Origin: Methanophagales archaeon
Lineage (GTDB): Archaea; Halobacteriota; Syntropharchaeia; Alkanophagales; Methanospirareceae
Reading direction: 5' to 3'
Assembly (NCBI GenBank): GCA_021159465.1
Contig: JAGGRR010000023.1
Span: 1 to 33,410, forward strand
DNA length: 33,410 bases
In this document: piece by piece, positions 6,568 to 26,916 of the stretch
Numbering within the stretch: the stretch's first letter is position 1
How the letters are laid out: every line of letters begins with the position of its first letter
The notes under the pieces: model-generated
Seen by the model: the letters and a program-made list of their open reading frames with translations, nothing else
Told to the model about the DNA's origin: nothing
The model's database searches: none
Position numbers and translations under genes: made by a program

Positions 6568-7062
6568 TCAATCCTCTTCCTCCTCGTCGCCGTAGATTTG
6601 CTTGAGTATTTGCTCTCGTTCCTCATCAGAGACTGAGACTACACTCAGCGAGGAGCACAACTCTGTAAACCTCTTACTTTCTCGGCGAGCGAGGGGCTTA
6701 TATTCTTTAATAATGCCGTTTCTGAAGAGGGTGTATTGGTAGAGTATCCACACCACGACATCAAAGTGTCCGCCACCGCCGAGATTATCAACATATTCAA
6801 TGTTGAAATGATCCACGATGCGCTGCAACAGCTCTCTCATGTAATTCTCGTCAATAGATGCGAGAACGATGTCCTCTCGAGTGATTTTAGGCGCATCATA
6901 TCGCTTCAAGTTCTTAGCGAAAAACTCTAAGCTTCCGCCATCGTCTGTGGCAACGAAGTGCAAATCACCCTTTATTTTCAAGACGAGCTCAGAGCATGTG
7001 GGTTGGAAAGGTGCTCTTTCCCTTGTTATTTCTCCTACGCACATCATAACACGCACACGCAT
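6568..7062 (-). CDS. Paralog pair 1, member a (PFQPTCSELVLKIKG protein)
   Basis: Unknown family shared only with the gene at 7932-8468. Both open with a basic stretch, then PFQPTCSELVLKIKG, a conserved ENxxRELLQRIVDxFxIE segment and YVDNLGGGG, and both end in an acidic tail. ATG 7062 lies downstream of GGGGGTG; upstream start codons (to 7128) fall inside the spacer or previous gene. A 43-bp stretch (6971-7013) is identical at DNA level to 8380-8422. Small alpha/beta protein, no metal or catalytic motif visible. Confidence 0.7.
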   Translation of the reverse strand: MRVRVMMCVGEITRERAPFQPTCSELVLKIKGDLHFVATDDGGSLEFFAKNLKRYDAPKITREDIVLASIDENYMRELLQRIVDHFNIEYVDNLGGGGHFDVVVWILYQYTLFRNGIIKEYKPLARRESKRFTELCSSLSVVSVSDEEREQILKQIYGDEEEED

Positions 7063-7090
7063 TCGCACACACACCCCCAAAAGGAAAAAA

Positions 7091-7945
7091 TCAGAGTTTC
7101 TCCGATAGAATGTATACGGCAAGCACATTCTTCATCCTTCTGATAATCTCTTTGTTGTGCTCTCTGATCTCGAGGGTTTTTGCAGCCCACTCGCTGAACA
7201 TCTCGTTGATGATGCCATACAGTTCAAAAAGCGCCTCAGCCTCTCCTAATCCGAAGATGTAGGTCGCATCCGCTTTTGAGAGCTCGATTGAGTAGGGCGC
7301 TAGGGGATAGAGTTTTATTTTGTTGAATGTCATGGGCTCTTCACCAAGCCACACTCTGAAACTTCCTTCACGCACAATCTCAAGCTCATCCAAGAACTTG
7401 AAATCCTTTGCTAAAGTCGTTAGCTCAAGAAAAGCTTCTCTGATAGGCTCACGCAGATGCGGCGCAATTACATCGGCGTATTTTATGAGCCTTCTGATGA
7501 AAACTCTTCTTGAATCTGGTGGATGAATGTCTATGCCTTCGGGTGCGATGTGAATGTATACATTGTCCTCGCTAATGGAAATAGGAATTGTGCAATCATC
7601 ATGAAGGCGTAAAGATATTAGTTGAGTGAATATGTCGTCAAGGTCGTTGAAAAGATCGAGGTTCGCAATCGTATCTAAGTCGCTTGAAAGTAGCTTTCCC
7701 TCTCCACGCTCAACTTTTGTCTCTGATATTGCCATCAATAAGTCTGTTAAGATGAACCACCATCCATGATACAGGCGAGTCTTTCTAAGCTCCTCAACCT
7801 TTTTCTTGAGGTGTTCTCTGAGCGCCTCAATCTCTGCAAGGGCGTCCATCACCAGCGCTTTGAGATGTTGTATTCTGTCTGCGCACGCCTTCAACTCTTT
7901 CACGAGCTCCTCTCTTTCTGTCTTACTCATCTCAGGTTTTACCAT
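7091..7945 (-). CDS. P-x2-R-x2-IRE family paralog A, 284 aa
   Basis: Most distant clear member of the seven-protein family. It begins with a predicted coiled coil (about 1-60), has a beta-rich centre, then the family core IKYADVIAPHLREPIREAF and the GSFRVW segment, and ends with a helix and the family C-terminus (RRMKNVLAVYILSEKL). ATG 7945 follows GGTGAG, and 14 bases overlap the upstream gene. It is flanked on both sides by the two members of paralog pair 1, suggesting duplication of a block. No enzymatic motif is seen. Confidence 0.7.
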   Translation of the reverse strand: MVKPEMSKTEREELVKELKACADRIQHLKALVMDALAEIEALREHLKKKVEELRKTRLYHGWWFILTDLLMAISETKVERGEGKLLSSDLDTIANLDLFNDLDDIFTQLISLRLHDDCTIPISISEDNVYIHIAPEGIDIHPPDSRRVFIRRLIKYADVIAPHLREPIREAFLELTTLAKDFKFLDELEIVREGSFRVWLGEEPMTFNKIKLYPLAPYSIELSKADATYIFGLGEAEALFELYGIINEMFSEWAAKTLEIREHNKEIIRRMKNVLAVYILSEKL

Positions 7946-8468
7946 CACTCTCACCTTCCCCCTCATCCTCGAGCTCTTCTTCATCCAACATCTCCAAATC
8001 AATGAGAATTCTGCGGTGCTCTTCGTCTGAGACTGCTCTTACGTCTAAAGTGTAGCATATTTCTTCGAATCTCCTGCTCTCCTCCCAGATTATCTTCTGA
8101 GGGTCGAACTCTTTTATCAAACCATTCTTGTAAAGGACGTACTGATAGAGAATCCACATGACGCTCTCGAATCTTCCACCACCGCCGATGTTGTCTACGA
8201 ACTCAATCTCAAAGAAATCAACGATGCGCTGAAGAACCTCTCGCAGATGATTCTCGTCGATAGCAATAAGGAGGAGGTCTTCCTGCGTAATCTCGGGCAC
8301 ATCCTCAAAAGACCGTATCGCTTCTGCAAACCACTCCAAATCGTCACCGTAATCTGTGTGGATGTCGTATACATCTCCTTTTATTTTCAAGACGAGCTCA
8401 GAGCATGTGGGTTGGAAAGGTGGTTTTTCTCTATTTATTTTCTCTAATCTGTACATTTTTACTCTCAT
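7932..8468 (-). CDS. Paralog pair 1, member b, 178 aa
   Basis: Homologous to the protein at 6568-7062: PFQPTCSELVLKIKG near residue 17, then DENHLREVLQRIVDFF, EFVDNIGGGG, and an acidic Glu/Asp-rich tail. The start at 8468 follows GGTGGTGA. No domain of known function. The two copies bracket paralog A, and the shared 43-bp identical DNA segment could support recombination that deletes or duplicates the gene between them. Confidence 0.7.
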   Translation of the reverse strand: MRVKMYRLEKINREKPPFQPTCSELVLKIKGDVYDIHTDYGDDLEWFAEAIRSFEDVPEITQEDLLLIAIDENHLREVLQRIVDFFEIEFVDNIGGGGRFESVMWILYQYVLYKNGLIKEFDPQKIIWEESRRFEEICYTLDVRAVSDEEHRRILIDLEMLDEEELEDEGEGESDGKT

Positions 8469-10259: not shown

Positions 10260-10339
10260 CTCGCCCACCCCCTCAAGCAAAAAGGAAAAAATAAGAAGAG
10301 GAGGTTTGAGCTCTGTCATTTCACGCCTTCACCCCCAAA

Positions 10340-10504
10340 TTACCTCTTCTTTTTCTCACGCTCCAAAAACGCATCCACCGCAGCTCTCACCGCTTCAGAT
10401 ACGGTTTTATATCGCCCCTCTGCCACGAGCTTCTTCAACGCCTCGTATTTCTCCGCTGGCAACAGCACGCTCACAGGGAAATAACCTCGTACCTGTTCCT
10501 CCAT
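10340..10504 (-). CDS. Ribbon-helix-helix (CopG/MetJ-type) regulator, 54 aa
   Basis: A short DNA-binding regulator: strand residues GYFPVSVLLPAEKYEALKK, then helix-turn-helix residues VAEGRYKTVSEAVRAAVDAF and a basic end (EREKKKR). Length and pattern (strand, helix A, G-x-Y-x-T-V-S-E-A-V-R-A-A, helix B) fit the Arc/CopG fold, which dimerises and inserts its beta ribbon into the DNA major groove. It is the first gene to the left of the AT-rich control region (10505-11061), whose inverted repeats are plausible operators. ATG 10504 follows GAGGGG. Confidence 0.85.
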   Translation of the reverse strand: MEEQVRGYFPVSVLLPAEKYEALKKLVAEGRYKTVSEAVRAAVDAFLEREKKKR

Positions 10505-11805: not shown

Positions 11806-11880
11806 GGGCTCGTAGCTCAGCACGGACGGAGCGCCGGCCTTCTAAGCCGGGTGTCGCGGGTTCAAATCCCGTCGAGCCCG
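11806..11880 (+). tRNA. tRNA-Arg, anticodon TCT
   Basis: A complete cloverleaf: acceptor GGGCTCG/CGAGCCC, D stem GCTC/GAGC with the GG pair in the loop, anticodon stem CCGGC/GCCGG with loop CTTCTAA (anticodon TCT), five-base variable loop, T stem GCGGG/CCCGT with loop TTCAAAT, and discriminator G. CCA is not encoded and there is no intron. It reads AGA/AGG, codons that appear frequently in these genes. It is the only non-transposon gene on the plus strand. Its 3' 19 bases overlap, antisense, the last codons of the radical SAM gene. Confidence 0.95.
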
Positions 11881-12629
11881 CTGATGCAGCGCAGGTAAGG
11901 GCAACTGAATCTCAATTCCTCCCTCTTGCACGCCTCTAACGCCCTCTCCCAGTCGTCGCAACTGTTGAGCTTGTAGATGATGTTTGTGCTGAATGAGCAG
12001 CCCCGCACGCTTCCATCAGGATGGACTGAGATAAGTCTATGTGCGTAGCCGCAGGGCTCTTTCCATCGCAAGCCATACTTGAGCGTGAGATAGAGACATT
12101 CGTCGCAGAAGACATTCTCTTGCTGCAAGAGCGTGAGGATGAAGGGTTGTAAGCGGAAAGGCACGAACTTCGGCGACAGCAGGAACACGGGATGATGCTC
12201 CGCAAGCAGAATTACCCTTGCAAAGGTTTGCATCGGATTTCTGTCAATCAAGAGGTAATTTACGCCGACACCGTCAAGATTCTTGATGAGTTCGTAAAAC
12301 TCACGAAAGTCGAACTTGAACTCGTCAAAGCTCACAGATATGTCTGCATTTCTTACCCTGCGAGCCCGCTTTGGCAGCGCTGTTGTGATTGAGACTCTTA
12401 TGTCGTAATCCTCACAAAGCTCGACGAAGCGATTGCAGAAGTCTATGTGCTTTTCATCGTATAAAGGTTCGCCACCGCCGAGACATATACGATTAGTGTA
12501 AGGTACGATGTGTGGGATTAGTGATAAGAAGAAGGAGAAAGGTTTTGCTTGTCTCTCTTTCTGATAGCAGAAAGGACAATTTTTAGCACATTTAGTTGTG
12601 AAGTGAATCATTATGGCTTCAAACATCAT
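11862..12629 (-). CDS. Radical SAM protein with C-terminal Cys cluster
   Basis: A radical SAM enzyme: the CxxxCxxC motif (C14, C18, C21 in TKCAKNCPFC) binds the 4Fe-4S cluster that cleaves S-adenosylmethionine, followed by GGGEP. The C-terminal half has further Cys (CDECLYL, EPCGYAH, RGCSF, CPYLRC) spaced like a SPASM/twitch auxiliary cluster, and HPDGSVRGC fits that class. Such proteins often modify peptides or install cofactors; the substrate here is unknown. ATG 12629 follows AGGTGGG. The last six codons and stop lie inside the tRNA 3' end, suggesting that recombination at the tRNA replaced the gene's original terminus. Confidence 0.85.
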   Translation of the reverse strand: MMFEAIMIHFTTKCAKNCPFCYQKERQAKPFSFFLSLIPHIVPYTNRICLGGGEPLYDEKHIDFCNRFVELCEDYDIRVSITTALPKRARRVRNADISVSFDEFKFDFREFYELIKNLDGVGVNYLLIDRNPMQTFARVILLAEHHPVFLLSPKFVPFRLQPFILTLLQQENVFCDECLYLTLKYGLRWKEPCGYAHRLISVHPDGSVRGCSFSTNIIYKLNSCDDWERALEACKREELRFSCPYLRCISGLDGI

Positions 12630-18644: not shown

Positions 18645-20015
18645 TCAGAGAGAAAGAGTGATATGAGTCCAGCCAGGCGCATCCACTGCTTTGCACGTAG
18701 TTACGATTACGCCTTTACCTCTTGTTGCTATTGCGGTGAACAGCGGTTTCGCCTCTTCTTCATCAAAGAGATAACCGTCAGTCATCACGACGACGACACT
18801 GCCACTCCGCATTTCTTGCAGCGTCTTCTTTAATGCTGGCGTTATTCTCGTGCCGCCACCACCACGCATCTTCTTCGCAATCACTTTAGCATCTGAAGGA
18901 CGTTTTACTTCAAGTCTCTCATAGACATCAGCGTCAAAGCATCTGACAAGAACTTTTGCACACTTCGCAGCACCGTAAATCTCACCAAGGAACTGTTCCA
19001 ACTCTTGCTTGCTTATAGAGCCTGAAGTATCTATGAGTGTGTAAACTTCTCTCAAGCCAAATCTCTGGAATCCTGGGAAGTTATCACTTTTTCTTGAGAG
19101 CCTCTTCCATGTTGAGATGTGTTTCTGAAGACCTATAGAAACAGCAGCTCTCAGCAAAGCTCTCCAATCGACTTTTGGCCTCAATATCGAGTCCAGCTCG
19201 GCAAGCAGAGCGCCCACAGGCTCTCTACCAGCCATCTTCGCTGCGAGCTGGGCGTTCTCCAAAACTTCCTTCCATCTCTCTTCTAATTCGCTCTCTGAGC
19301 CTTCGTAAAGTGAGCCGTCACCTTCTCTGATGACTTCTCCTTGCTGCTCGCCAACGAAATCACCAGTCAAATCGTGCTCTTCGCCTATACTCCTGCTCCC
19401 GCCTTTACCTGCACTCTCGGTATCTTCAGCTCCAACATCTCCGCCAGCTCTCGCACCACCTTCTTCACCACCTTCAGCACTCTCACCACCTTCAGTGGTG
19501 CTTACGCCGTCAGTCTCACCAGAGCCGCGAGGGTAAGGTCTATCTCCACCATTTCCAGACCCACCAATCGCATATTTTAGCAGCTCTCTGTATAAGCGTT
19601 CAACACTCCATCGCTTGATCTCATCTTCCGATTTCTCAATCAGTGAGCTTACATGATGTGCTCTCAAGGGATGTAAATCATCTCGGTGGTTGAAATCGTT
19701 ATCAATAAGAGCTTCGTTTACGATGATGTCTGCTGCTATATTGAAAAGCTCTTTACTTTCGACCCTATCTCCACGAAATGCGTGTCTGAATGCCGCATGC
19801 AGTACTTCATGCGCAACAATAAACGCTCTCGACTCTAACGAGAACTTCTTGAATCGCTCTTCGTTGATGTAGAGATTGCCGCGCTTATCAACACCGGCGA
19901 TTTCTGTTAGCCTACTTGTCTTCAGAACTCTGAGTTTGTAGAGGATTGAGCCGACGAAAGGGCTCTTTATCATTATGAGCGTTGCTGCTTCCTCAAACTC
20001 TCTCATTTCGCCCAT
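18645..20015 (-). CDS. VWA protein with N-terminal metallopeptidase-like domain (DUF2201 type)
   Basis: Residues 55-105 match the putative metallopeptidase domain that precedes VWA-like domains: HEVLH (69-73) with a further His at 78 and NIAADIIVNEAL (92-103). Residues 150-240 are a Gly/Glu-rich disordered linker. Residues 320-456 form a VWA domain with a complete MIDAS: DTSGS (329-333), T389 in GGGGT and D413 in MTDGY. These proteins usually work with MoxR AAA+ ATPases in assembling or remodelling complexes, and a MoxR gene lies 3 kb upstream on the same strand. ATG 20015 follows GGGGGTGA. Downstream are paralogs E-B, possible clients. Confidence 0.88.
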   Translation of the reverse strand: MGEMREFEEAATLIMIKSPFVGSILYKLRVLKTSRLTEIAGVDKRGNLYINEERFKKFSLESRAFIVAHEVLHAAFRHAFRGDRVESKELFNIAADIIVNEALIDNDFNHRDDLHPLRAHHVSSLIEKSEDEIKRWSVERLYRELLKYAIGGSGNGGDRPYPRGSGETDGVSTTEGGESAEGGEEGGARAGGDVGAEDTESAGKGGSRSIGEEHDLTGDFVGEQQGEVIREGDGSLYEGSESELEERWKEVLENAQLAAKMAGREPVGALLAELDSILRPKVDWRALLRAAVSIGLQKHISTWKRLSRKSDNFPGFQRFGLREVYTLIDTSGSISKQELEQFLGEIYGAAKCAKVLVRCFDADVYERLEVKRPSDAKVIAKKMRGGGGTRITPALKKTLQEMRSGSVVVVMTDGYLFDEEEAKPLFTAIATRGKGVIVTTCKAVDAPGWTHITLSL

Positions 20016-20045: not shown

Positions 20046-20432
20046 TCACTCAATGTTGGCTTTGAGTATATCTGCGGCGAGCTCATTCTCTACAGATCTG
20101 AGATGTAGAAGCCTCTCTCCTTCCCTTATGATCTTATAAACTTTATTTCTGAAGAGGATGAAATCTCCCACTCTTTTGATCTCAGGGCCATCTGTGCGAA
20201 GAACGATGTATTTTTCTCTTAAGAAATCTCCCACCGTCCACGAGGAGAAAGGGAGTTCGCTCTCGCACTCAGGACAGACACATATTGCGTGCATTTCATC
20301 CTGATCTTCTACTCCCAGGCGTTTGTAACGCAGAGATTTTTTCTTATCTAGAGATAGCTCGTATCTCCATAGTTCTTGTATGTATGCGTGGACACTATTT
20401 ATCTCTCTCCCGCAAAAAGGACACTTAGGCAT
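20046..20432 (-). CDS. Zinc-ribbon paralog 1 (MPKCP family), 128 aa
   Basis: MPKCPFCG at the start and CVCPECESELP near residue 51 give four Cys in two CxxC pairs, a split zinc ribbon. The rest is family-typical: an FLxEKYIVLRxDxPEI segment, GDFILFRNKVYKI, and a helical end ENELAADILKANIE. ATG 20432 overlaps the upstream paralog by eight bases and follows AGGGGTGA. The fold may be a small beta barrel attached to a zinc ribbon; role unknown. Confidence 0.75.
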   Translation of the reverse strand: MPKCPFCGREINSVHAYIQELWRYELSLDKKKSLRYKRLGVEDQDEMHAICVCPECESELPFSSWTVGDFLREKYIVLRTDGPEIKRVGDFILFRNKVYKIIREGERLLHLRSVENELAADILKANIE

Positions 20433-20847
20433 CTTCCTCACCCCTCTCCTCTGAAGATTTTTCCGCATCAGTCTTAAGAATATCTGCAAGCACTTCGTCC
20501 TCTACAAGTCTGAGAATCAGAAGGTTTTGGTCGGATTCATCCTCATCAATTTTGTAGACTTTACCTCTGAAGATGATGATGTCACCTTTCCGAGCTTCAA
20601 TCTCAGGATCATCTGGACGAAGAACAACGTACTTCTCCTTTAGAAAGTCCTCGGTATCATCATACATAGGTATATGCTGATCGCAATGAGGGCAAACATC
20701 AGTCTCTAACGCCTCGCTATCTGATATGAAATCTTGTTCCCATTGTAAATCTCCGTTCTCGTCTAAAGAAACTCTGTAACGTGAGGTCTCTTGATACCAG
20801 GAATATAGATACTCTATCTCCTTCCCGCAGAAGGGACATTTAGGCAT
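20425..20847 (-). CDS. Zinc-ribbon paralog 2 (MPKCP family), 140 aa
   Basis: Same family: MPKCPFCGKEI, second pair CPHCDQHIP, FLKEKYVVLRPDDPEI, GDIIIFRGKVYKI, LVEDEVLADILK and an acidic tail. The start is placed at ATG 20847 by alignment with paralogs; it lacks a good Shine-Dalgarno, and a GTG at 20886 is an alternative. It lies between paralog 1 and the paralog split by the IS607 element, so three copies stood in tandem before the insertion. Confidence 0.7.
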   Translation of the reverse strand: MPKCPFCGKEIEYLYSWYQETSRYRVSLDENGDLQWEQDFISDSEALETDVCPHCDQHIPMYDDTEDFLKEKYVVLRPDDPEIEARKGDIIIFRGKVYKIDEDESDQNLLILRLVEDEVLADILKTDAEKSSEERGEEDA

Positions 20848-20887
20848 CTCTCTCGTTCTACCGATCTCAACACACCAAACAATCACT

Positions 20888-21183
20888 TCACTCTAAGTTT
20901 GCCCTGATGATGCTTGCTATAGTCTCATCCTCTACAAGCTTTAGATGTAGTAAAGCGCTGCATTCGTCCATTACTTTGTAGACTTTTCCTCTGAAGAGGA
21001 CAAAATCTTCTTTTCTTTTAATCTCAGGGTCGTCTGAGCGAAGGATGATGTAGTTCTCCTCTAGAAAATCTTCAATATCTCCGAAGTACTCGTCAAGAGG
21101 GATTTCCTCTCCACACTCTGGACAAAATGCTTTGTAAACTTTATCTCCTTCTTTACTATGCTGCCACACCCATCGCCCATCTG
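20888..21183 (-). pseudogene. C-terminal fragment of zinc-ribbon paralog 3, cut by IS607
   Basis: From the codon PDGRW onward the sequence is the C-terminal 98 residues of an MPKCP-family protein: CPECGEEIP, FLEENYIILRSDDPEI, DFVLFRGKVYKV, LVEDETIASIIRANLE. Joined at the GG core to the N-terminal fragment at 23053-23137 it gives 381 bases, an intact 126-residue frame with both CxxC pairs, matching the lengths of its paralogs. It is now fused in frame to the transposon's TnpB. Confidence 0.88.
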
Positions 21184-22426
21184 GGTAGACTTTAGGTTGT
21201 GCATTTTGAGCCTTTCGGCCCAAAATGCTTCGTGCGATGGAATCTTTTGTCCATCGCACAGGGTGCAACCCCACACCCTCTATCCCGTCCGCCTCAAAGG
21301 CTTCCGGGATTGCCTTCCTTATGATGTTGTATGCGGCGTTCACATCTGCATTTATGATAGTTCCTCTCGCACTCTTGAACAACCCTCTCATTCTTCTACC
21401 TGCGTATTCTTCTCTATGCTCTATTGGCTCGTTATCCAAGAAACTACACTTTGATGTGTGGTCTTCTTCCACGAGGATTACTTCTATCCCTCTTTCCTCT
21501 ACCTTATACTTGATCTGCTGAATCAGCGTCCAGATTGGAATTTGCACGAAATTCTGGTTATTCCTTTTACCTAAGTTCACCTCTTGCTTCCACTCCTTGT
21601 TATAACCGATCACTAATCTTCCGATGTTGTGCGAAGCGCACCACTCAGCAACGAACTTGCTGACCTTGTGCAAGAAATCCTTCAGCTTTCTTTCCCTCTT
21701 CGCTGATAGTCTCTTTAGCCTCTTGCTTGTCTTTATTCCTTGCTTCGCATATATGCGCTGCAATCTCGCTTTTTCCTTGTTGAAGAACTGGTTTATGGAC
21801 TTCGCAACCCCGCCCTTAACAACAATCGGCTTCTTGCCGATGTTGTTTGCGATGGTTACGAGGTTGCGAACACCTAAATCTATGCCTGCGACTCTGCCTT
21901 TGTCTCTTTCTGCGATATTTACCTCTTTTTCATATACAATCTCAACAACATAACCTACACCCTTTGGAATTATCCTGACCTCTCTTATTCCTTCCTTTAT
22001 CCTTGTCTTGAGCTTTAAGCAAACAATTTTTGGGAAAATTAGCTCTCCTTCTTTGACTTTGACCTGTTGATTCGTGAAGATGAGCATGAAGACACCATCT
22101 TTCTTCTTATATTTCGGTGGTCTCGGCCTTTCTTTGAACTTCTCAGGATGTTCCCTCCATTCATCCATTGCGTTGAAGAAAGATTTCCAGTTTCTGTCCA
22201 AAACTCTCAAAATCTGCTGAGCAGTCTGAGCTGGAAGCGCTCTGTAGTTCTCACTATTCTTCAAGAGTTTATCTAACTTGTTGTATCCTATGCGTTTTCC
22301 TGTTTTGAAGAACTCTTGTCTGACAATGTAATTTGCCTCGTTGTATAGGTTCTTAGATATATGACAGAGTTTTTGAAGGTTCTCGTCTCCTCTTATCCAT
22401 ATCTGTTCAGTCCTTAGAACTTTCAA
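20888..22426 (-). CDS. tnpB: TnpB (IS607-type) fused in frame to a zinc-ribbon fragment
   Basis: RNA-guided RuvC-type nuclease of the TnpB/Cas12 lineage. RuvC-I GIDLGVRNL (D183) and RuvC-III INADVNAAYNIIRK (D361) are present. The RuvC-II glutamate is not in the usual place: the segment reads LVIGYNKEWKQE, typical of a TnpB branch with rearranged catalytic residues. The zinc ribbon is reduced (TSKCSFLDNEPI). No stop occurs at the element end, so the frame passes through the right-end hairpins and from residue 415 onward consists of the disrupted zinc-ribbon protein, giving 512 aa. ATG 22426 overlaps the recombinase gene by 20 bases. Confidence 0.88.
   Translation of the reverse strand: MKVLRTEQIWIRGDENLQKLCHISKNLYNEANYIVRQEFFKTGKRIGYNKLDKLLKNSENYRALPAQTAQQILRVLDRNWKSFFNAMDEWREHPEKFKERPRPPKYKKKDGVFMLIFTNQQVKVKEGELIFPKIVCLKLKTRIKEGIREVRIIPKGVGYVVEIVYEKEVNIAERDKGRVAGIDLGVRNLVTIANNIGKKPIVVKGGVAKSINQFFNKEKARLQRIYAKQGIKTSKRLKRLSAKRERKLKDFLHKVSKFVAEWCASHNIGRLVIGYNKEWKQEVNLGKRNNQNFVQIPIWTLIQQIKYKVEERGIEVILVEEDHTSKCSFLDNEPIEHREEYAGRRMRGLFKSARGTIINADVNAAYNIIRKAIPEAFEADGIEGVGLHPVRWTKDSIARSILGRKAQNAQPKVYPDGRWVWQHSKEGDKVYKAFCPECGEEIPLDEYFGDIEDFLEENYIILRSDDPEIKRKEDFVLFRGKVYKVMDECSALLHLKLVEDETIASIIRANLE
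21195..21262 (-). ncRNA. Right-end hairpins, probable TnpB guide (omega) RNA 3' scaffold
   Basis: Two stable stem-loops occur near the element's right end: GTGCGATGG with CCATCGCAC (21232-21240, 21251-21259) and a 12-bp stem with one wobble and a GAAA loop (21201-21228). In TnpB systems the right end and 3' part of tnpB encode the guide RNA, whose guide is the flanking DNA. Here the guide would derive from the zinc-ribbon gene just left of 21184. Exact ends cannot be seen. Confidence 0.6.
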
Positions 22427-23003
22427 CCAAACTCACCTCTAGCTTCTCATTTTTCCTCTTGCTGTAAAGCTTCATCGAGAAGCAATGCAACAAAGAAACT
22501 ATTTCTTCAAAAATCTCTTCGGCATCTAATTTCTTATTTCCAACCTCTGAGACTACTATAATCTCAGTTCCGAAACGCTTGAAGAGTCTCTCAAAGAATG
22601 AGAAGCCAACTCTGCTCAGTCTATCTTTATGTGCAATTATCACTTTATCTACCTTGTAGTCCATAATTTCGTCAAGAAGCTTGAAGAACTCCTTCCTATC
22701 ATCGAAATTAATTCCTGATGCTATGTCTGCAAAGATACCATTTATCTGATAACCATTCGCAAAAGCCCATGCTTTCAGCATCTCTATTTGATTTTCAAGA
22801 GCTTTCTTCTGCTTCGGCGTGGAAACTCTCGCATAGATGTATGTCTTGCGTGGAAGTCCTCGATTCAAAAGCCTGAAGACATCTTCATCAAGATAATCGT
22901 AACGCTTCCCAATCTTTTTTCTCCTTATCAAGCCCTCCTTTGCATATCTGTGCAGCGTGCTCCGAGATATCCGAAGCACCTTCATTACCTCTCCCGCCTT
23001 CAT
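22407..23003 (-). CDS. IS607-type serine recombinase (TnpA)
   Basis: N-terminal MerR-like helix-turn-helix (MKAGEVMKVLRISRSTLHRY) followed by a serine recombinase catalytic domain with nucleophile S61 in YARVSTPKQK, and DRLSRVGF with the conserved Arg pair. IS607 recombinases have this reversed order, DNA-binding domain first. It moves the element between GG sites through a covalent Ser-DNA intermediate. A TATA-like CTTATATATACC (23024-23035) lies about 25 bases before the ATG, so the message is probably leaderless, unlike the host element's genes. Confidence 0.92.
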   Translation of the reverse strand: MKAGEVMKVLRISRSTLHRYAKEGLIRRKKIGKRYDYLDEDVFRLLNRGLPRKTYIYARVSTPKQKKALENQIEMLKAWAFANGYQINGIFADIASGINFDDRKEFFKLLDEIMDYKVDKVIIAHKDRLSRVGFSFFERLFKRFGTEIIVVSEVGNKKLDAEEIFEEIVSLLHCFSMKLYSKRKNEKLEVSLVESSKD

Positions 23004-23172: not shown

Positions 23173-24303
23173 TTAAGCGACGACGCTCGCAGCCTCAGCG
23201 ATGCTCTCGAAAGCGTCAGGCGCTGCGTCCTTAACAGCCTTCAGGACTTTTCGCCTCGATTTCTTCGGAAGTGCTCTTGCGAAGACTATGAACAGCTCTC
23301 CTCTATCTCTAAGTATTTTCACAGCAACATGAATGATTTTCTTAATGTCGCTAACGTTTGCGAGCTGAATCGTAAGCATGTATTTTTGATCAAGTGAGAG
23401 GCTATCGTATTTGTCAGGATTCTTTATGATTTCGTTGACGTCCACACGAGCTCTGAGGAAAGTTCGGAACTTCAAGCCGAGCTCTCTTCCCACTAATGTC
23501 GGCGCATCTTTCTCGAGGTCAAGCGAGCGTGCTGCTAAAATCGTCCACGTTCGTGGTGTTGCAAATTGTTCAAGCGTTTCTGCATCGTCAGGCTTCTGCA
23601 CAAGATAGTTTTCTCCTTCGTAAGCTGCTAAAAACGCATAGACCCGCTTGTCCCAGGCATCTCCGTATTTCCTGTCCATGTAGTCAACCCAGTCTTTAAG
23701 ACTGGGTGGATCGACTCTTATGACTCTGAAGCGGTTGAGCAAAGGTGCTGGCAGTGGACGAGCAATCGCACTGTCTTCTGGCGTATTTCCTGCTGCGATG
23801 ATGAAAGTGCCGCCGTTTATTGAGATCTGACCGACCTTTCTGTCTAATGCTATTTTGTAAGCCGTTGATAAGACGTCATCTCGCTGGACGTTCGTTATTT
23901 GACGGGTGTGTGGCAACCTGACGACCAGACAACCAGGTACCACACACCTTTCGTCTAAAAACAAGATTCCGCTTGCCGCCTGTAAGCAGCGAGCCCAAAG
24001 CATCGGATAGTAGCGAACGTAATTGCCGTTAACACGAGGTATTCCTATTAGATCCGAGGGTTCGACCTCAGTCAGTCTGAAATCCACGAACAAGAAGTAT
24101 TTATCTGGTGCCTTTAGAATTTCCTGCGCCGCGTCATCACTGTAGTCAATAAATTCTTTGCCGTGCTCTCTTGCCAGCTCTTCAGCACATGTTCGCACCG
24201 TCTCGCTCTTCCCAATTCCTGACGAACCCAGTAGGAGACACGGTGTTTTAGGGTCTTTCTTATATAGACGCTTTAAATAATCAAGCAATTCGCTCGCCTT
24301 CAT
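23173..24303 (-). CDS. MoxR-type AAA+ ATPase with a probable spliced intron
   Basis: AAA+ ATPase of the MoxR (AAA_5) class: Walker A GSSGIGKS (26-33), Walker B ILFLDE (113-118), sensor 1 AAGN (170-173), and arginine finger PLLNRF (R191). Unusually, 17 codons (about 119-135, RCVVPGC onward) follow the Walker B glutamate and separate it from ITNVQRDD, which should come next. The DNA around this insert forms an exact bulge-helix-bulge, and excising 51 nt restores LDEITNVQRDD (see 23899-23949). MoxR ATPases act with VWA proteins such as the one at 18645-20015. It begins 23 bases after paralog F. ATG 24303 follows GGGGGTGA. Confidence 0.88.
   Translation of the reverse strand: MKASELLDYLKRLYKKDPKTPCLLLGSSGIGKSETVRTCAEELAREHGKEFIDYSDDAAQEILKAPDKYFLFVDFRLTEVEPSDLIGIPRVNGNYVRYYPMLWARCLQAASGILFLDERCVVPGCLVVRLPHTRQITNVQRDDVLSTAYKIALDRKVGQISINGGTFIIAAGNTPEDSAIARPLPAPLLNRFRVIRVDPPSLKDWVDYMDRKYGDAWDKRVYAFLAAYEGENYLVQKPDDAETLEQFATPRTWTILAARSLDLEKDAPTLVGRELGLKFRTFLRARVDVNEIIKNPDKYDSLSLDQKYMLTIQLANVSDIKKIIHVAVKILRDRGELFIVFARALPKKSRRKVLKAVKDAAPDAFESIAEAASVVA
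23899..23949 (-). other. Candidate 51-nt bulge-helix-bulge mRNA intron in MoxR gene
   Basis: On the minus strand the 5' side reads TTA, GACG, AAA, GGTGTGTGG and the 3' side reads CCACACACC, CGTC, AAA, TAA. Pairing gives a 9-bp inner helix (with a further CCTG/CAGG inside), a 3-nt AAA bulge, a 4-bp GACG/CGTC helix, a second 3-nt AAA bulge on the opposite strand, and an outer TTA/TAA helix. This is the archaeal tRNA-endonuclease substrate in the correct orientation. Cutting after the second base of each bulge removes 23899-23949 and joins GAA to ATA, restoring the conserved Walker B region in frame. Confidence 0.82.
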
Positions 24304-24326: not shown

Positions 24327-25184
24327 TCAGAGCTCCGAGAGCACAAAGGGTGCTGCAATCTCACGCATCTTTCTCACAATCTCTTCGCATCTTTCTTTCT
24401 TAGCTTGCAGTTTCTGATAGGCTTCATCGCACATATCTGCAAGCACATCATATAACTCGAGAAAGCGGAGGGAATTTACAAGAACCGTTCCTATGTCTTC
24501 CACACTTCTTATATTTCCGTCGTTGAATAGGATGATGCGAAAAGTTCCTGGCGGATAAGTTAAATCTACACGAATCGAGATTTTATCGAACGCCTCATAG
24601 CTTATCAGTGAGCCCTTATATTTCACATGTGGGTTAAGGATGAGCACTCTGAATTCACCCTCACGAGTGACGATATTCTCATCAAAATATAGTTCTGCGG
24701 TGAGAGATTTTGCAAGTGTGTGGAATTCGGCTAGTTCTTCTCTAATAGTCCTCCGAACATAAGGAACGACTTCATCTCCATATCTCACAAATGTCCGAAA
24801 AACCTCTTCCAGCGTAGGATACCTGCGTTGATCGCTCCAGAACGTCTCGTATATTAGATTTCCTACAATGAGGTAACCACCACCGAGAGGAATCACTCTT
24901 CTTTTGTAGCTGAATGGTTTGAAATAGCCAAACAATTTTATAGCTTCATATTTGTAGTATGAAATCTTCTTCACTAATTTCCACACTCTGTTCATAAGTT
25001 CCTTACACCTTTTGTAAATTTCTGTATCCTTTATCTCTCTGCTTATTCTCCCATTTAGGGTGTTGAGTGCTTTTTCCAAGCAGCTTTCGTAAGCTTCCTC
25101 AGCCCTTATATAATCAATTCTTTTCTTGTCAACCTCCTGTGCAATTCTTTCCAGTTCTTCCTTTATCTTCTCTATCTCTTTCAT
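24327..25184 (-). CDS. P-x2-R-x2-IRE family paralog F, 285 aa
   Basis: Contains a long N-terminal coiled coil (about 1-65), FKPFSYKRRVIPL, LIVGNLIYETF, the core RYGDEVVPYVRRTIREEL, REGEFRVL, a beta region, and the C-terminus RKMREIAAPFVLSEL. It is closest to paralog G, including DNA similarity at the 3' end. It directly precedes the MoxR gene, so family members flank both partners of the MoxR/VWA pair. The ATG is one base from GGGGGA, as in paralog E. Confidence 0.72.
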   Translation of the reverse strand: MKEIEKIKEELERIAQEVDKKRIDYIRAEEAYESCLEKALNTLNGRISREIKDTEIYKRCKELMNRVWKLVKKISYYKYEAIKLFGYFKPFSYKRRVIPLGGGYLIVGNLIYETFWSDQRRYPTLEEVFRTFVRYGDEVVPYVRRTIREELAEFHTLAKSLTAELYFDENIVTREGEFRVLILNPHVKYKGSLISYEAFDKISIRVDLTYPPGTFRIILFNDGNIRSVEDIGTVLVNSLRFLELYDVLADMCDEAYQKLQAKKERCEEIVRKMREIAAPFVLSEL

Positions 25185-25201
25185 TCCCCCAAAGAAAAAA
25201 A

Positions 25202-26041
25202 TCAGAGTCCTGAGAGCACAAAGGGTGCTACTACCTTCTTCATCTCCTTTAGAATTTCATCGCACCGCTCCTTCTTTGCTTGTAGCTTCTCATAGGCTTC
25301 TTCATACATTTCCGCTAATGTATCGTATAGCTCGCTGAGCCGAAGAGGAGCGTAGGGTGTATCGTCCATATCTACCACATCTCTGCTATTAGTGTTAGTG
25401 TTAATCAGGTAGACTGTGCACGATCGAAGAATCTGTGTGAGATCTACATAAATAGTGACTTTGTTGTATGTTTGCCAAAACACCCGCGCCCACCCTTCCG
25501 ACCGCTCAGAATATTCGAAAGAGAGAGTCCTAAACTTTCCCTCACGAGCAGCAAGCTCTCCCTTCATTTCAGCCATGAGTTCTCTTCCCAATCTGCAGAA
25601 CTCTGCAAGCTCTTCTCTAATATTTTTTCGAACATTTGGAATAATCACATCAGCATGTTCTAAGAGTATCTGAAAAATTTCCCTCGCTGTTGACTCTCTA
25701 TATATCTTCGTGTTGGGGGTTGTGGTTATCGTCCTACCTATCGTAAGATATTCTAAAGGTTGGAGTCGAATTACCTTTCTTTTATAGCGGAATGGTTTGA
25801 AATAATCGACAAGTCTTATAGCTTCTTCATCATATCGTGGAAAATTGGAGATTATATATTCGATTTTTCTCCGCAACTCATTACACTTTTTGTAATCCTC
25901 TCCTTCTACGATTTTGCTAGCTAACTTTTCACTCACACGCCCAAACCTTTCGAGAGCTTCACTGTATATTCTTTCTGCTTTCTGTAATTCCTCCACCGAT
26001 TCCTCTAAGTCCGTTATATCTTTTTTAAGGTCTTCCGGCAT
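25202..26041 (-). CDS. P-x2-R-x2-IRE family paralog G, 279 aa
   Basis: Closest relative of F: coiled coil with YSEALERFGRVSEKL, FKPFRYKRKVIRL, YLTIGRTITTT, core EHADVIIPNVRKNIREEL, REGKFRTL, LSELYDTLAEMYEEAYEKL and C-terminus KEMKKVVAPFVLSGL. ATG 26041 lies six bases after GGGGG, the expected spacing, and an in-frame ATG at 26047 touches the site. It follows the secreted transglutaminase-like gene. Function unknown. Confidence 0.72.
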   Translation of the reverse strand: MPEDLKKDITDLEESVEELQKAERIYSEALERFGRVSEKLASKIVEGEDYKKCNELRRKIEYIISNFPRYDEEAIRLVDYFKPFRYKRKVIRLQPLEYLTIGRTITTTPNTKIYRESTAREIFQILLEHADVIIPNVRKNIREELAEFCRLGRELMAEMKGELAAREGKFRTLSFEYSERSEGWARVFWQTYNKVTIYVDLTQILRSCTVYLINTNTNSRDVVDMDDTPYAPLRLSELYDTLAEMYEEAYEKLQAKKERCDEILKEMKKVVAPFVLSGL

Positions 26042-26067
26042 CTTCATCCCCCAAGGGAAAAAATAAA

Positions 26068-26916
26068 TCATATTCTTTTTCTGAGGAAGAGTGCAACGAT
26101 TATAGCCGCCACGAGTGGTGCTGTTGGAGTGGGTGTTGTCGGCTCGGGCGTTATTGGCGTTGGAGTCGGTGTTGTTGGAGTCAGCACAGCACCAGGATTC
26201 ATTCTCATGAAATCTTTGACCGTGTAGAAATCCACGAGGAAATACTCTAACTCAGGAATTACCGCTCCTGAGACATATCCGAAATGCTCTGAATACGTTC
26301 CATCAATCGGGATGAGCACCCAATCTTCAAAGCCATCACCAAGTTCGCAGTGGAGTTTCTGCGCAATCTCTTCAGGAGTGGTCTCAAACACATCAACGAC
26401 ATCGCTCAGCCCAAGCTCAAAAATTGCGTCTGCGGTTGATTCGGGTGCATAAAGAAGGCAAGTTGCGTGATCAACTTCGCCGTCTCCATCGCAGTCGATG
26501 TCGCCTACAAAGGCGATATAACCGTAATAGTTCAGAAGTGAAGCGAAGAGAATTGCGAAGTCCTCGCAGTCTCCTGCCTGCTCTCTCAGCGTTTCTTCAG
26601 GCGTCTGAAAGTAGTCAGGGCCTGGGCGTCCATCACCAACGATTGTTCCTGGCGCGGGCTCAGCGTTTTCATCATCATATCTGTATATGATTGTGGATGT
26701 GAGTGTGTCGTATGCGATTTTCATCTCGTCGAGGTCTAACAACCCGTCGTTGTTTATGTCAAAGGTTGCGAAGACGCTAACGACATAAGGTGTGTAGAAC
26801 TCTGAGGGTGTGCAATTGCTCAGAATTTCAGGCACTTGGGCTTGCGTGGGCGTGATTGAGAGAGGGATTAGTGAGAGCGATAGCACAAGCAGAGCCTTAC
26901 TCACGCTTACTCCCAT
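26068..26916 (-). CDS. Secreted, membrane-anchored transglutaminase-like protein with EF-hand-like loops
   Basis: Residues 1-28 form a signal peptide (KALLVLSLSLIPLS core). An EF-hand/dockerin-like calcium loop follows (DINNDGLLDLDEM), then a transglutaminase/cysteine-protease-like core with GDCEDFA (candidate nucleophile Cys), DHATCLLY (candidate His) and VLIPIDGTY (candidate Asp). A second Asp-rich loop, DIDCDGDGEVD, lies between. The C-terminus is a Thr/Pro stalk (TPTPTPITPEP), a transmembrane helix (APLVAAIIVALFL) and RKRI, so the domain is displayed outside the cell or virion. ATG 26916 follows GGGGGTGTG. It is the only clear membrane protein in the window and may act in virion or surface modification. 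Confidence 0.82.
   Translation of the reverse strand: MGVSVSKALLVLSLSLIPLSITPTQAQVPEILSNCTPSEFYTPYVVSVFATFDINNDGLLDLDEMKIAYDTLTSTIIYRYDDENAEPAPGTIVGDGRPGPDYFQTPEETLREQAGDCEDFAILFASLLNYYGYIAFVGDIDCDGDGEVDHATCLLYAPESTADAIFELGLSDVVDVFETTPEEIAQKLHCELGDGFEDWVLIPIDGTYSEHFGYVSGAVIPELEYFLVDFYTVKDFMRMNPGAVLTPTTPTPTPITPEPTTPTPTAPLVAAIIVALFLRKRI

Follow-up and report, generated by a model that had tools for sequence, protein, structure and literature searches.

How an ATPase gene can carry 17 additional codons directly behind its Walker B motif is the question raised by a locus on contig JAGGRR010000023.1 of the Methanophagales archaeon assembly GCA_021159465.1, a stretch of 33,410 nucleotides that was analysed as a whole and is here referred to as the window. 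The minus-strand ORF 24303-23173 codes for a protein of 376 aa that has a match to the phrog_1297 ATPase family (E 4e-44) and displays the features of MoxR-like AAA+ proteins, namely a Walker A (GSSGIGKSE) and a Walker B (GILFLDE) motif. As correctly described in a first-pass annotation of the sequence, 17 residues (RCVVPGCLVVRLPHTRQ, encoded by 23949-23899) are placed directly after LDE and are followed by ITNVQRDD; the insert has a length divisible by three, contains no stop codon and is in frame with the ATPase ORF. With a probability of roughly 0.8, these 51 nt constitute a bulge-helix-bulge (BHB) type pre-mRNA intron, recently gained by a MoxR-family AAA+ ATPase gene of an archaeal virus- or plasmid-like element. 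This reading is well supported, because the exact LDEITN[V/I]QR motif is restored by the predicted excision, the homologs examined are free of the insert and splicing enzymes are encoded in the MAG. The coordinates of the features are collected in Table 1.

Table 1. Features of the ATPase locus, its candidate intron and its partner gene (positions refer to the window).
Feature	Positions	Strand	Basis and remarks
Exon 1, MoxR-like AAA+ ATPase gene	23950..24303	-	Residues 1-118, ends with Walker B ...LDE; ORF, phrog_1297, homolog alignments
Candidate BHB intron, 51 nt	23899..23949	-	Reads RCVVPGCLVVRLPHTRQ if unspliced; BHB scan, homologs, codon score, AlphaFold2
Exon 2, ATPase gene	23173..23898	-	Spliced protein would be 359 aa; ORF and homologs
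Outer helix 5' strand TTA (exon)	23956..23958	-	Pattern scan; weak in fold
Central helix 5' strand GACG (exon)	23952..23955	-	Pattern scan; pair probability at least 0.99 at 37 C
5' splice-site bulge AAA	23949..23951	-	Predicted cut between 23950 and 23949; scan and folding
Inner (intron) helix 5' arm GGTGTGTGGTA	23938..23948	-	Pattern scan
Inner (intron) helix 3' arm TGCCACACACC	23905..23915	-	Pattern scan
Central helix 3' strand CGTC (intron)	23901..23904	-	Pattern scan and folding
3' splice-site bulge AAA	23898..23900	-	Predicted cut between 23899 and 23898; scan; not the preferred fold
Outer helix 3' strand TAA (exon)	23895..23897	-	Pattern scan; weak in fold
VWA / putative metallopeptidase-like protein (DUF2201), partner gene	18645..20015	-	Pfam; adjoins MoxR in relatives

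The insert is missing from the first four homologs and from all 34 others in a 35-member alignment (A2), and, in a separate survey, from 84 of 84 homolog alignments that span the site, drawn from genomes and viral contigs. Homologs with the same 17 residues had been named beforehand as evidence against an intron, and none of those examined carries them. The closest relative, encoded by a viral contig (L254, IMGVR_UViG_3300037558_002251), shares 51% identity and reads exactly LDEITNVQR without a gap, and the homolog of genome G177 (L134), 45-47% identical, reads LDEITNIQR, also ungapped, at the DNA sequence TTAGATGAGATAACGAACATCCAACG. This genome was placed in the Archaeoglobaceae, the family of G079, which we take to be Ferroglobus placidus. 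By the predicted excision, a piece of exactly 51 nt would be lost and GAA brought up to ATA (joined-exon DNA at the junction, TTAGACGAA/ATAACGAACGTCCAGCG). The product reads LDEITNVQR, in line with the in-frame restoration of LDEITNVQ anticipated in the first-pass annotation. As both bulges read AAA, a cut shifted by 1-2 bases would give an identical spliced product. A scan of genome contigs with the MoxR protein found no relative, matches to the VWA gene were absent from the rest of the order's genomes (53 searched, own included), and exact-peptide scans of viral contigs with the MoxR, VWA and MCM-like proteins and the 24327-25184 paralog found no sister element.

The insert also differs from its surroundings in codon usage and in predicted structure. 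Scored with a codon model that had been trained on the genes of the element itself, it obtains -0.32 per codon, whereas the element's 1783 coding windows average +0.125 (sd 0.128) and only 0.06% of them score as low; the hairpin itself constrains the sequence of the insert, so this test is supportive and not independent. The AlphaFold2 model of the unspliced protein has a mean pLDDT of 87, and the insert, with values of 25-41, is its sole long disordered stretch: values below 50 are found for residues 120-137, which lie behind the Walker B strand (112-117) and ahead of the following helix (142-154).

On the minus strand the site reads, in order, TTA, GACG, AAA, GGTGTGTGGTA...TGCCACACACC, CGTC, AAA, TAA, as revealed by a pattern scan. 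This order has the topology of a BHB motif, with a 4-bp central helix formed between exon and intron, a 5' bulge between the central and inner helices and a 3' bulge between the central and outer helices, the two bulges being on opposite strands. The motif had been called exact in the first-pass annotation; its elements, order and positions were confirmed, although the inner helix comprises 11 bp (one of them G-U) instead of 9, and little thermodynamic stability is predicted for the 3' bulge and the outer helix. Under a strict pattern (Watson-Crick central helix, 3+3 bulges, outer helix of at least 3 bp, inner helix of at least 7 bp with a maximum of one G-U, low-complexity matches removed), the candidate intron is the sole match in 281 kb of the MAG, both strands included, and an inner helix of at least 11 bp was obtained in 1 of 500 simulated minus strands (third-order Markov). 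A scan of the window and contig C20 for inner helices of at least 5 bp gave a few weak matches, none equal to the candidate. Relaxed criteria yielded about 60 other BHB-like sites in the window, mostly purine/pyrimidine tracts, and none of them persisted under the strict ones. One of the weak matches from the scan with shorter inner helices (10299-10340, minus strand: AAGAA, GAGG, TAA, TTTGGG...CTCAAA, CCTC, CTC, TTCTT) lies across the start of ORF 10319-9996; it is purine/pyrimidine rich and probably due to chance.

The same 51 nt might have arisen as a palindromic insertion, through a small mobile repeat or a replication error, to be kept as an unspliced 17-residue loop or in an inactivated gene, the BHB-like pairing being accidental. 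An in-frame, stop-free sequence is what a retained peptide would need, the flanking AAA could be a 3-bp target duplication, the outer helix is weak, and the 12-bp putative introns of SIRV1 may simply be translated (Yokobori et al., PMC2738675). However, when the insert was moved along its own strand, central and outer pairing occurred at a single one of 33,259 sites, its actual position, and thus accidentally at none of the remaining 33,258 or so; on the other strands of the element it occurred at 3 of 91,054. Moreover, the insert sits right after the catalytic Walker B glutamate, a position that is insertion-free in all homologs examined, its codons are unlike coding DNA and the stretch is predicted to be disordered, which makes this explanation unlikely. 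A chimeric insertion produced by assembly or sequencing is conceivable in a MAG of 268 contigs in which the insert is present as a single copy (no second copy of the intron sequence was found in the 281 kb sampled), but an artefact is very improbable for a sequence that matches nothing else in the genome, is placed precisely at a conserved motif and can pair with the sequence on either side of it. Group I or group II introns and inteins were discarded, the insert having only 51 nt (17 aa) and the sole Rfam match in the window being a tRNA located elsewhere.

The enzymes of the proposed splicing, the tRNA endonuclease EndA and the exon-joining RtcB, are both encoded in the MAG. Its EndA (on G000:C144) has 342 aa and two tRNA_int_endo domains and matches nearly over its full length the structures 1r0v/2gjw, which we take to be A. 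fulgidus EndA; by its sequence it would be of the tandem-repeat kind, with a subunit similar to that of the Archaeoglobus alpha'2 type. RtcB is also present and is 96% identical to that of the Methanophagales isolate G60ANME1, which identifies the MAG as ANME-1, a group of methane-consuming archaea. The MAG also contains a tRNA with a 32-nt BHB intron (G000:C62:11982-12088). In the proposed mechanism, exon GACG would pair with intron CGTC beside the 3-nt AAA bulges of the folded transcript, and each bulge would be cut behind its second base by the host EndA. Ligation of the exons by RtcB would then bring back LDEITNVQR and with it a functional Walker B site, while the excised 51-nt intron would probably be circularised. 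Transcription, cleavage, ligation and the loss of ATPase activity without splicing are all steps that we infer, excision by EndA and joining by RtcB being modelled on described systems (PMC2738675, PMC7714728, PMC12397907).

The hairpin could also be skipped by the ribosome, leaving the RNA whole. Translational bypassing of this kind is known from T4 gene 60 and the yeast mitochondrial byp elements, and the size of the insert, its hairpin and its presence in a gene of a virus-like element would be suitable. On the other hand, the in-frame take-off codon GAA does not match the last skipped codon, CAA, the AAA repeats are available only out of frame, and a central helix between exon and intron would not be expected, so that bypassing appears extremely improbable.

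Returning to the BHB intron, the predicted RNA fold agrees with the motif at one splice site more clearly than at the other. The fold of 81 nt exceeds dinucleotide shuffles in stability by 4.45 sd, and within it the central helix, the 5' bulge and the inner helix are predicted with near certainty: in the partition function the pairs of the central helix reach 0.99 at 37 C, as does the first inner pair, and at least 0.87 at 70 C. The outer TTA/TAA pairing has a probability of only 0.005-0.03, and a competing exon-exon helix (UUGUU/AACGA, with an internal loop and without the 3-nt 3' bulge), which also appears in the MFE folds, is favoured, the margin being about 6 kcal/mol at 37 C and some 4 kcal/mol at 60-70 C. 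The BHB motif is, therefore, canonical in its sequence, but in these folding models the 3' splice site does not clearly adopt the canonical fold; at this site EndA might select the BHB conformer or cut poorly. EndA of the alpha'2 type has been reported to be limited to canonical BHBs (PMC12397907), and a tension remains between this requirement and the weak 3' site. It could be imagined that the weak 3' bulge and the competing helix allow EndA supply or temperature to set the amount of active ATPase, the unspliced message giving a disrupted isoform; such regulation is considered improbable. A two-isoform switch had already been proposed in the first-pass annotation from the absence of stops and the length of the intron, but it has no support: a random 51-mer would be in frame and stop-free in about 15% of cases (1/3 x (61/64)^17), and lengths divisible by three also occur among the cbf5 introns (PMC2738675).

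What the first-pass annotation overlooked is the location of the gene on a virus- or plasmid-like element. In tetranucleotide usage, the first 20 kb of contig C20 (L109, L114) correlate with the window at r = 0.97, and three large chromosomal contigs, which among themselves reach about 0.92, at 0.57-0.65. The PCNA encoded by C20 resembles those of haloarchaeal tailed viruses, and several TnpBs are present as well; the window and C20 probably belong to one and the same mobile element or virus, binned with its host. It is this composition, matching a PCNA-bearing contig and not the chromosome, that assigns the ATPase gene to a virus- or plasmid-like element. Matches to PHROGs were limited to ATPase, VWA-type, MCM-like and radical SAM proteins in the window and to a PCNA-type protein in C20; no capsid or terminase was detected among the proteins of both contigs tested in this way, and the evidence reaches no further than a virus-like element. 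The element was assigned to the host bearing EndA and RtcB by binning only, and, as its composition is unlike that of the host chromosome, the host and hence the relevant EndA are not certain; we infer the ANME-1 lineage as host.

Other features of this neighbourhood were also recorded. MoxR-VWA pairs are found in relatives (L182/L183, L184, L185, L190 and L254); L254 (9245-11593 and 908-3249) combines an overlapping pair of this kind with a terminase-like gene that, judged by eye, is apparently split by an intein. An IS607-like element (20888-23003, minus strand) is composed of a serine recombinase (22407-23003) and a TnpB (20888-22426) whose ORF extends without a frameshift into the end part of a zinc-ribbon gene, a relative (43%) of the neighbouring 20425-20886, as if the element had inserted into a zinc-ribbon paralog. 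Beyond the TnpB core, residues 368-411 of 20888-22426 share 86% identity over 44 residues with a TnpB-adjacent stretch of C20 (L109 12491-12622); the two probably have an element end or a guide-RNA region in common. The window also contains paralogous families of unknown proteins with 27-57% identity (24327-26071, 7091-8002; 6568-7128 and 7932-8468). A tRNA-Arg (TCT) at 11806-11881, confirmed by Rfam, is on the plus strand, opposite to most genes, and overlaps the 3' end of a radical-SAM gene; the second ARAGORN call, a tRNA-Ala at 26116-26195, was not confirmed.

The BHB introns of the crenarchaeal cbf5 gene (16-44 bp, mostly unconventional, cut by a hetero-oligomeric EndA) belong to a cellular gene of Desulfurococcales and Sulfolobales (Watanabe 2002; Yokobori 2009, PMC2738675). 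Apart from the crenarchaeal cbf5, no archaeal coding gene is named in the literature searched as having a demonstrated BHB intron. The present candidate resembles it as a short BHB intron in a coding region, at the codon of a catalytic residue (some cbf5 introns have 33, 36 or 39 nt), and differs from it in its 51 nt, its virus-like element, its origin in Halobacteriota and the tandem-repeat EndA. With archaeal tRNA BHB introns, such as the one in this MAG, it shares the succession of 3-nt bulge, 4-bp helix and 3-nt bulge, although the outer helix of that tRNA has 5 bp (GGCTT/AAGCC), which stabilise its motif, and that of the candidate only 3 A-U pairs. Haloferax volcanii, which carries the intron of HVO_1309, belongs to the same archaeal phylum. 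That intron, like the candidate, is an mRNA BHB of similar size (46 nt) and is processed by EndA, but it lies in a 5' UTR and was confirmed experimentally (PMC7714728), whereas the one described here is coding and predicted from sequence. In the rudivirus SIRV1, small in-frame inserts in viral genes were likewise proposed as introns, although they measure only 12 bp, their splicing is undemonstrated in that account and the virus is crenarchaeal (Peng 2004, as cited in PMC2738675).

The ANME-1 virome paper makes no mention of introns (PMC9894754), and no BHB intron of an ANME element was found in the literature searched, which leaves out many subscription papers, so that priority is not certain. 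The candidate would be a rare new coding BHB intron beside that of cbf5. If this is true, introns of the tRNA type also enter protein genes of archaea other than Crenarchaeota and of mobile elements, which would suggest a way in which they spread. Such genes would then be mis-annotated by archaeal gene callers, to which an intron that is in frame and stop-free is invisible. The locus would also provide a clean case of recent gain, as the intronless relatives share the junction motif.
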